A DNA stretch of 34,441 nucleotides. Origin: Alphaproteobacteria bacterium. Lineage in GTDB: Bacteria > Pseudomonadota > Alphaproteobacteria > Methylaequorales > Methylaequoraceae. Under the pieces are notes generated by a model, which saw nothing but the letters and a program-made list of their open reading frames with translations, was not told the origin of the DNA and did not search any database. Below, in pieces: positions 9,717 to 11,754 of the stretch (positions are counted from its first letter, which is position 1; each line of letters begins with the position of its first letter). The stretch is taken from the NCBI GenBank assembly GCA_002712255.1, contig PATB01000007.1, forward strand, positions 33,490-67,930, in the 5' to 3' direction. A program made the position numbers and the translations under genes.

Positions 9717-10682
9717 TTGATTTCTTTTTCAATTTTAGGTTGCACATTGAATGAAAATTTATCCTACAATGAGAAAACTGTTTACAATCTCAATGCATCT
9801 AAATGGGGTGATGAAATAAATAGTTCAATTATTATTCTAGCAATACATGGATTCAACGATTATTCAAAATCATTCGAGATACCAGCAAACTTTTTTAAAA
9901 AATTTGATTTATTTACAATTGCTATTGATCTTCGTGGTTTTGGAAAAAATCCAAATCCTGGGGATTGGTATTCGTTAGAAAATCACATAAAAGATTTAGA
10001 AATTCAAATACAAAAAATTAAAAAAAAATATCCTAAAAAAAAATTATTTTTAATGGGGGAAAGTATGGGTGGAGCTATCGTTATTACTCTTCTAAATTCA
10101 AATAAAAATTTACCTATTGATGGCTCTATACTAATAGCCCCAGCGATATGGAATTTCAAAGAAAGAAACTTTTTTAAAAGTTTAACTCTAAACATATTTT
10201 CAAAAATTTTACCAAACCTTCGTGTAAGCGGAAAAGGATTCATCAAAGTTCAAGCTAGCAATAATTTAGAAGTGTTAGAAGAATTATCAAAAGATCCATT
10301 TTTTATTCATAAACCAAAATTAGAAAGTTTGAATGGTGTAACAAATTTAATGAATAAATCTTTTATCGATGCCAGAAAGTATTTAAAAAATCCTTATTAC
10401 AAAACCTTAATTGTTGTTCCAATAAATGATCAGATTGTTCCTAGGAAACCATTAATTGGACTTCTTCAGGAACCAGATATTAAAAAAAACATTGGAAATA
10501 GCTTTGATTTAGGTGTTTATGTTAATAGTTACCATATGATGCTAAGAGATTTAGAAGGAAATTTTATTTCAAGGGAGATAAAAGAATGGATTCTGAATAG
10601 AAAAAATATTTTAAATTTGAATAGTTTTAAAGCCCCTCTAGAAAAACTTATGAATGAACCTTATTATCATATACTAGATTAA
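9717..10682 (+). CDS. Alpha/beta hydrolase (monoacylglycerol lipase/S33-like), probable lipoprotein
   Basis: A serine hydrolase resembling monoglyceride lipase and lysophospholipase L2. Oxyanion region LAIHGFNDYS and nucleophile elbow GESMGG (Ser116) are clear; Asp238 in VVPINDQIVP and His273 in NSYHMMLRD complete the triad (numbered from TTG). The start is uncertain. The TTG at 9717 leaves only eight residues before a lipobox-like ILGC. The same frame upstream, overlapping the end of the ABC gene, reads IIKRLKIFLISFSILGC, a good lipoprotein signal, but it offers only ATT or ATA codons (9684, 9693 or 9696). Membrane-attached localisation is therefore inferred. It follows the ABC gene by eight bases and shares TAATG with the next gene. 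Physiological substrate unknown. Confidence 0.83.
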   Translation: MISFSILGCTLNENLSYNEKTVYNLNASKWGDEINSSIIILAIHGFNDYSKSFEIPANFFKKFDLFTIAIDLRGFGKNPNPGDWYSLENHIKDLEIQIQKIKKKYPKKKLFLMGESMGGAIVITLLNSNKNLPIDGSILIAPAIWNFKERNFFKSLTLNIFSKILPNLRVSGKGFIKVQASNNLEVLEELSKDPFFIHKPKLESLNGVTNLMNKSFIDARKYLKNPYYKTLIVVPINDQIVPRKPLIGLLQEPDIKKNIGNSFDLGVYVNSYHMMLRDLEGNFISREIKEWILNRKNILNLNSFKAPLEKLMNEPYYHILD

Positions 10683-10936
10683 TGAAATTTATTACCAAAA
10701 TAGTTTTCTTGTTTTTCCTAACTTTTTCAAGCTCAGTTATTTCTGATGAAATCATTCAAGATCGTAACGGAAATTACTTCTTAATGAAGGATGATGGTAC
10801 ATTTGTAAAATTACCTAAACCAAAACCAGGTAATAAATATGTCATACAAAAAAAAAAAGTAAAAAAAGTAAAAAAAAATATTGTTAATGAACCAAAAAAA
10901 AAGGCAAGGAGAAGAACAAACCAGGGAATTAGATAA
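10682..10936 (+). CDS. Small secreted basic protein, unknown function
   Basis: I do not recognise this 84-residue protein. Residues 1-21 form a signal peptide (MKFITKIVFLFFLTFSSSVIS). The mature part begins DEIIQDRNGNYFLMKDDGTF, a short segment that resembles small periplasmic proteins with a NGxYFLMxxDGT hairpin, then turns into a lysine- and proline-rich tail (KPKPGNKY, KKKVKKVKK, KKKARRR). The tail could bind nucleic acid, lipid or peptidoglycan, but nothing proves it. ATG at 10682 overlaps the hydrolase stop as TAATG, and its own stop overlaps the next ATG in the same way, so three genes are translationally coupled. Confidence 0.7.
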   Translation: MKFITKIVFLFFLTFSSSVISDEIIQDRNGNYFLMKDDGTFVKLPKPKPGNKYVIQKKKVKKVKKNIVNEPKKKARRRTNQGIR

Positions 10937-11154
10937 TGAATGATAAAAATAAAAAGGCAATCTGGGCACTAATTCAAAGTCGTGGTGATTTTCTTTCAAA
11001 TAAACTATCTCCTCATCCTAGTCATCCTAATGGACGTAACCCTTATGCACATATCTGTAGTTTAATTAAGTTACATTTTGGGTGTTCATACAAAGAGGTT
11101 AAAGATGAAAGGCTAGTCGAGTTAGTGAAGTTTATTGAAGGCCTTAAAGACTAA
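10936..11154 (+). CDS. Small cytoplasmic protein, unknown function
   Basis: A 72-residue protein without a signal peptide or membrane segment. It reads like a compact helical domain: a central SPHPSHPNGRNPYAHI loop followed by IKLHFGCSYKEVKDERLVEL and a final helix. The pattern YxxI...LxxxFGxxSYKxV....ExxxFI recalls the C-terminal region of some phage antirepressor-associated domains (ORF6C/P22_AR type), but the likeness is weak and I would not name it. It starts by TAATG overlap with the preceding gene. The bases right after its stop begin the unusual inverted-repeat segment. Confidence 0.65.
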   Translation: MNDKNKKAIWALIQSRGDFLSNKLSPHPSHPNGRNPYAHICSLIKLHFGCSYKEVKDERLVELVKFIEGLKD

Positions 11155-11250
11155 ATGAACGGGAAGATCTCATTTTATAAGGGAGGAAATATTATGCTTT
11201 TAGATCTTCCCATCGTTCAATTTTCTGACACTAAGTCAGTTACACTATAA
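11155..11250 (+). CDS. Candidate short ORF (31 or 18 codons) inside an inverted repeat
   Basis: Directly after the preceding stop (TAAATG) an ATG opens a 31-codon frame ending at TAA 11248-11250. An in-frame internal ATG at 11194 has the best ribosome-binding site I noticed in the window, GGGAGG at 11181-11186 with seven bases to the ATG, and would give MLLDLPIVQFSDTKSVTL. The peptide has no recognisable domain, membrane segment or run of one amino acid that would suggest classic attenuation. It could be a real micropeptide, a leader peptide, or chance within a structured RNA. Confidence 0.35.
   Translation: MNGKISFYKGGNIMLLDLPIVQFSDTKSVTL
11157..11218 (+). other. Interrupted inverted repeat / candidate structured RNA
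   Basis: Left arm GAACGGGAAGATCT (11157-11170) pairs with right arm AGATCTTCCC (11202-11211) plus GTTC (11215-11218), leaving a three-base ATC bulge and a 31-base loop. The stem is far richer in G and C than its surroundings. The loop holds a strong Shine-Dalgarno sequence and an ATG. There is no T run after the right arm, so it is not an intrinsic terminator. It may be a regulatory element, a small RNA or a mRNA-stabilising structure at the 3' end of the upstream operon. Two further small overlapping hairpins follow at 11225-11252. Confidence 0.5.
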
Positions 11251-11252
11251 CT
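11225..11252 (+). other. Two mutually exclusive small hairpins
   Basis: CTGAC-ACTAA-GTCAG occupies 11225-11239 and AGTTA-CACTA-TAACT occupies 11238-11252. Each is a perfect five-base-pair stem with a five-base loop, and they share the AG at 11238-11239, so both cannot form fully at once. The stop of the candidate short ORF lies in the second. Between here and 11334 I see only AT-rich sequence with a possible -35 box TTGACT at 11276. Confidence 0.35.
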
Positions 11253-11334
11253 AAGCAATTTATATGCCAAATTTTTTGACTTAATTTCATTGGTGATTTA
11301 AAAAAAATGTAATAATTTAGGTTTTTATATAATT

Positions 11335-11754
11335 ATGATTTCTAGCTTTGAGTTAACATACGCAGCATTTTTGTTTCCTGCTATCCCTTTAATGATGATT
11401 TCATTCAATAATAGGTATACATCTTTAAGCAGATTAATAAGAAAAATTCACGATGAATTTATTAATAAAAAAATTTCAAAGAAAGATAAATCTGCAATGA
11501 GATACTTGGCTCAAATAGATATTTTGAATAAAAGATTAGTTTACGTTAAGCTAATGCAACTTTTTTCTGGCTTATCTTTTTTTTTTAATCTACTGACCAT
11601 TTTAATTGGAATTTATGAAATAAAATCTTCTGTTTTTTTTTTCATTGTTGCATTAACTTTTTTTTGTATCGCAATTATCGTTTTTTTGATTGAGATTCAC
11701 TTGAGTAGTAAAGCACTTAAAACACACCTTAAAGACTTAGAGGATCTAGAATAA
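11335..11754 (+). CDS. DUF2721 family membrane protein
   Basis: A 139-residue inner-membrane protein of unknown function. It has an N-terminal membrane segment including FLFPAIPLMMISFNNRYTSL, the phrase that marks DUF2721, a cytoplasmic stretch (RLIRKIHDEF to RYLAQIDILNKR), then two membrane helices (about residues 75-120) and a charged tail. ATG at 11335 follows an AT-rich 84-base spacer with a possible -35 TTGACT at 11276-11281 but only a weak -10 (TAAAAA at 11299). It is 12 bases upstream of the peptide transporter and probably co-transcribed with it. Confidence 0.8.
   Translation: MISSFELTYAAFLFPAIPLMMISFNNRYTSLSRLIRKIHDEFINKKISKKDKSAMRYLAQIDILNKRLVYVKLMQLFSGLSFFFNLLTILIGIYEIKSSVFFFIVALTFFCIAIIVFLIEIHLSSKALKTHLKDLEDLE

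Follow-up and report, generated by a model that had tools for sequence, protein, structure and literature searches.

Background

Stand-alone genes for sigma-54-dependent small RNAs (sRNAs) with -24/-12 promoters are known from Gammaproteobacteria (Qrr, GlmY/Z, NrsZ), and many sigma-54 sRNAs are nitrogen-regulated. In Rhodobacter, the CcsR or cuckoo RNAs present a CCUCCUCCC-type motif in hairpin loops; they are arranged in tandem after the gene of a small protein and are linked to stress sigma factors. The known systems nearest to the locus described here are the anti-Shine-Dalgarno (anti-SD) sRNAs alpha-r14/NfeR1 of Sinorhizobium and the RpoN-dependent RNA CJnc230 (FlmE) of Campylobacter jejuni. 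In the alpha-r14/NfeR1 RNAs the unpaired regions hold an ultraconserved, C-rich anti-SD motif, and the stem sequences vary widely; each of their three hairpins carries CCUCCUCCC, the promoter is of the sigma-70 type, and translation is repressed by pairing at start regions, as by NfeR1 on ntrB (PMC10746234). CJnc230 belongs to the flagellar cascade, is processed from the flgE mRNA, has a putative anti-SD CCUU between two stem-loops and represses translation, for instance of flgM (PMC11187230).

The locus which we describe is, like alpha-r14/NfeR1, alphaproteobacterial and combines a conserved anti-SD loop with variable stems. Where those RNAs have three CCUCCUCCC hairpins and a sigma-70 promoter, it has two hairpins, a single UUUCCUCCC loop and a conserved sigma-54 -24/-12 element. 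With CJnc230 it shares an anti-SD stretch and the link to RpoN, here through a predicted promoter; however, its sequence is unrelated, its anti-SD stretch lies in a hairpin loop, and instead of an origin from the 3' end of the flgE mRNA it has a stand-alone sigma-54 promoter among non-flagellar neighbours. Because it departs from them in the number of hairpins, the motif, the promoter class or the origin of the gene, we assign it to neither family. Qrr, GlmY/Z and NrsZ have other structures and seeds, the comparison by sequence consisting only of a negative Rfam scan. The CcsR/cuckoo RNAs have a similar loop motif, but differ in copy arrangement and sigma factors.

Judged from the sequence, this locus is probably the gene of a trans-acting, translation-repressing sRNA on the minus strand, driven by sigma-54 and co-expressed with the flagellar programme, whose targets are candidates only. 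The basis for this is the promoter, the structure with its covariation, the strand bias, the conserved loop, the presence of rpoN and the flagellar neighbours of other sigma-54 sites; transcription, activator, action in trans, repression and targets are what we infer from it.

Results

The window, that is the whole stretch of 34,441 nt analysed here, had been noted in a first-pass annotation for an inverted repeat at 11155-11250. This repeat is genuine: TGAAC-GGGAAGATCT (11156-11170) pairs with AGATCTTCCC-ATC-GTTCA (11202-11219) in 10/10 plus 5/5 pairs, with a fold z of about -3 to -4. It encloses GGGAGG (11181-11186), followed after 7 bases by an ATG (11194), the plus side lacks a T tract and the segment holds no long ORF, all as originally described. 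Folding of 11150-11260(+) yields -25 kcal/mol (z -3.0; 1/200 shuffles equally good) and that of 11145-11242 on the minus strand -25.8 (z -4.2; 0/200). Both strands thus fold beyond shuffles, the minus strand more strongly (z -4.2 vs -3.3 on plus). With 2 occurrences of GGGAGG in the window against 3.8 expected, this motif is not in itself a surplus; what sets the element apart from chance is its conservation (BLASTN matches down to about 75% identity and 15 invariant loop bases across 22 loci). The annotation missed a second hairpin (CTGAC..GTCAG, 11225-11239), the promoter at 11254-11269(-) and the minus strand.

A covariance model, built from the first loci and then refined, yields 22 strong copies and two diverged ones (L211 and L212), thus homologues in 24 of 32 family genomes and seven genera. 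The element of the window itself (G000:C6:44638-44735(-)) scores 87 bits (model R2, E 1.7e-15), being among the rows from which the model was built. In the 24-row alignment 95.6% of the cells are paired, and on checking the homologous regions for covariation the stem proved conserved and covarying, with double changes in 13 of the 22 pairs that make up the structure (0/500 shuffles, and no more than 4 in slid controls), in an alignment that is biased in favour of the structure because it was fitted to it. For the 22-row set alone, double-change cells and covariation score are above shuffles (0/500), but the number of covarying pairs, four, is not (160/500); much of the covariation signal therefore sits in the two diverged rows. 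In these, which come from one genus, AGGAAACCU/AGGUUUCC replace GGGAAGAUC/GAUCUUCCC, so that the stem is largely rewritten and still paired, next to the same 72-aa gene and with promoter and UUCCUCCCUU retained. Unless a stem that presents the loop is under selection, such a replacement around a kept loop is difficult to account for.

On the minus strand, the main hairpin (11156-11219; stem UGAAC..GGGAAGAUCU / AGAUCUUCCC..GUUCA) exposes the loop AUAUUUCCUCCCUUA (11178-11192). All its 15 bases are invariant across 22 loci; the two most diverged loci keep just UUCCUCCCUU, a core found in 24/24 homologues. Within the loop lies the anti-SD core UUUCCUCCC (11189-11181), hence a conserved, unpaired sequence complementary to the Shine-Dalgarno (SD) motif. 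The 5' hairpin, CUGAC-UUAGU-GUCAG (11225-11239(-)), is conserved as well, its outer C-G pair being changed to U-A in 6 rows. There are 16 G-U cells on the minus strand against 2 that would be G-U on the plus strand, and the fold z is more negative on the minus strand in 7/7 loci tested. From both observations the functional strand is most likely minus, opposite to the first proposal.

The 'strong ribosome-binding site' of the annotation is thus present as a sequence, but is simply the complement of the anti-SD loop. Its ATG is kept in only 10 of 24 homologues and replaced in 14, and loop indels that are not multiples of three leave no reading frame on either strand. Neither start codon nor frame being kept in relatives, the segment does not encode a peptide, and the suggested micropeptide of 18 or 31 residues has to be dropped. 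A leader peptide for the DUF2721/transporter genes is not supported either, since in several genera DUF2721 is missing and the transporter follows directly. A structured small RNA, the remaining suggestion, is supported, though for the minus strand.

BLASTN against 60 related genomes detected the segment in 22, which belong to the same family and include the own genome, with identity down to about 75%. No convincing match was found in 8 of the 32 family genomes, which may reflect incomplete assemblies, divergence or true absence, and a search of 380 further genomes sampled from the class, under stricter filters, gave no copy. The relatives that bear names, AG-343-F10 and TMED13 among them, are single-cell genomes and MAGs of uncultured bacteria, which we take to be marine. 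Rfam holds no RNA family matching the element up to E = 1 (window, L008, L012, L020 and L211 copies); the scan returned only a tRNA and a spurious tRNA-antisense match. The own genome has no second copy, weak covariance-model matches there being chance. BLAST matches at L023, L026 and L027 and weak covariance-model matches at L213-L215 and L218 were rejected, as promoter and matching element were absent on inspection. Viral carriage was rejected likewise: the exact 15-mer occurs in 97 IMG/VR stretches, and none of the 80 examined has promoter or stem.

The sRNA promoter lies between a 72-aa gene and the DUF2721/PTR2 genes. The 72-aa gene (10936-11154(+), from the ORF list) is convergent and outside the RNA; its stop codon is 1-2 nt from the hairpin, a synteny kept even in the diverged genus, and its relatives, 60-64% identical, also have the hairpin adjoining. 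It adjoined the sRNA in all loci where we looked. Together with an 84-aa gene it occupies 10682-11154(+), and neither has a significant Pfam match. Divergent and upstream of the promoter is the DUF2721 gene (11335-11754(+); PF11026, E 1.8e-23). At L006, L007, L013, L014, L019 and L022 (near position 1600) no DUF2721 gene separates the sRNA from the peptide-transporter gene; the latter then starts right beside the sigma-54 promoter, on the other strand.

The conserved block reaches from the hairpin to about 11271, past the limit first assigned, and ends with AAGCAA-N5/6-TGCC. Its minus-strand reading, TGGCAT-N5-TTGCTT, corresponds to the -24/-12 element of sigma-54 promoters. The promoter TGGCATATAAATTGCT (11269-11254(-)) contains a perfect TGGCAT-N5-TTGCT and is the sole match to TGGYAYN5TTGC in the window (0.11 expected); TGGYAY-N5-TTGC stands at the same place in 24/24 homologues. 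The locus thus carries the correctly spaced TGGCAY-N5-TTGCW expected of a sigma-54-dependent sRNA gene, and its genome encodes rpoN (E 9e-63). Among the 32 family genomes rpoN was not found in eight, one of which, G002, is 92% complete and carries the RNA. The -24/-12 geometry predicts the transcription start at a G at 11243(-), 12 nt past the C of the -12 GC. The predicted sRNA, matched by the covariance model, would extend over about 90 nt from there to about 11150(-), the 3' end being approximate. A U tract 3' of the hairpin is not clear in most genomes carrying the element; L211/L212 carry TTTTATTC/TTTTTTC after it.

In the 1.23 Mb genome there are six strict sigma-54 sites, and none with a reversed-pattern control. 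Of the other five, four lie ahead of flagellar genes (flgB, a FlgE/F/G-family gene, flhA and fliS), and one (G000:C22:5795-5810(+), L045) stands before a small SLT-domain lytic transglycosylase gene on a contig that also holds rpoN and motA. Under relaxed criteria, a scan of about 0.4 Mb of this genome also brought up sites at motA and at a 2OG-Fe(II) oxygenase gene, besides one more. Enhancer-binding proteins of the genome resemble NtrC in one case and NtrX in another, and a truncated one has FleQ as its closest relative in the PDB; as submitted, some being fragments, none reaches an NCBIfam equivalog cut-off. Flagellins occur in 29 of 32 family genomes. Given the genes behind the other sigma-54 sites, the enhancer-binding proteins and the flagellins, it is likely, albeit indirectly, that the promoter belongs to the flagellar programme.

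Two of these sites deserve separate mention. The SLT lytic transglycosylase is a possible flagellar peptidoglycan opener. The oxygenase gene, preceded at a distance of 28 bases by TTGGTAT-N5-TTGCA (L234:12559(+), G000:C34), shares its contig with fliS and a flagellin-like gene; its product could be a flagellin-modifying enzyme, or the site could be chance.

Candidate targets were sought at 416 ORF start regions in about 0.4 Mb (window and sampled stretches; best of up to eight starts), where pairing with the loop averages -6.7 kcal/mol (sd 3.0). At the top, with -18.3 kcal/mol in the own genome, is the gene of a 138-aa secreted protein, whose SD overlaps the coding end of the upstream gene (..KKGGK*). 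Pairing energies of its orthologues span -4.9 to -18.9, with weak values also in genomes that bear the sRNA. As a conserved target it was therefore rejected: pairing is strong in the own genome (G000) and in several more, and weak in G003, G005 and G012. This gene (G000:C19:1408-1749(-); L053, L088, L124) belongs to no known Pfam family, has an unusually strong SD and is conserved, with identities of about 69-88%, in most of the family. The ribosome-binding site of flagellin was rejected too, as it is mostly GGAG only, with ordinary pairing of about -4 to -11 in most loci. Among the candidates compared, none is conserved throughout the sRNA-bearing genomes, and no near-complement of the loop (up to 3 mismatches) exists elsewhere in the genome. 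GGGAGGA...ATG has many matches in the 32 genomes, most of those inspected lying inside coding sequence; genuine starts recur in subsets only, for example cytochrome c oxidase subunit I in genus g7.

Discussion

According to our model, RNA polymerase with sigma-54 (RpoN) would transcribe the locus from 11243 to about 11150(-) in concert with the flagellar regulon; the activator would be an enhancer-binding protein, at a guess most likely a flagellar FleQ/FlbD-like one. The RNA of about 90 nt would form a 5' hairpin followed by a large one that exposes the unpaired ...UUUCCUCCC... loop, which may pair with purine-rich SD regions of target mRNAs. By blocking 30S binding it would lower the translation of well-translated messages while flagella are built. 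A tentative, rather doubtful extension would make the RNA a translational allocator: once the sigma-54 flagellar programme is on, the anti-SD loop might selectively mute strong-SD messages, in genomes with few such SDs, and ribosomes shift towards flagellar proteins.

The same sigma-54 sRNA could instead stand under NtrC, as an RNA of nitrogen limitation which represses SD-led genes. The genome does encode NtrC-like and NtrX-like proteins, and nitrogen regulation is generally common among sigma-54 sRNAs. NfeR1, moreover, is tied to NtrBC (PMC10746234). We regard this as unlikely, because the other strict sigma-54 sites are at flagellar genes and the 350 bp upstream of each of the 24 loci contain neither TGC-N11-GCA nor GCAC-N5..9-GTGC, a count for which the expectation was low anyway. 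Less likely still is an effect in cis on the convergent 72-aa gene, by the transcript as antisense RNA or by the plus-strand hairpin as a bidirectional terminator or stabiliser. The short distance to the stop codon, the synteny and the good folding of the plus strand would fit, but an invariant single-stranded loop, a minus-strand promoter and the wobble bias would stay unexplained, and a terminator on the plus side would have no T tract.

For a plus-strand leader, riboswitch or micropeptide serving DUF2721 and the peptide transporter, as initially proposed, there are the GGGAGG-7-ATG and the plus-strand genes downstream. The loss of ATG and frame, the G-U changes in favour of the minus strand, the negative Rfam result and a downstream gene that varies between genera make this very improbable. 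A sigma-54-driven, trans-acting sRNA of the flagellar programme is thus the reading which we prefer.

Conclusion

To our knowledge, the free-living ocean group to which the host belongs is little studied and few regulatory RNAs have been described there. If our reading is correct, the loop would be a directly testable seed, and further members could be searched for in metatranscriptomes by a simple motif, a hairpin loop with UUCCUCCCUU downstream of a sigma-54 promoter. The element would then constitute a new, covariation-supported sRNA family of uncultured marine Alphaproteobacteria with small genomes, and an alphaproteobacterial sRNA tied to the sigma-54 (flagellar) programme through a promoter of its own.
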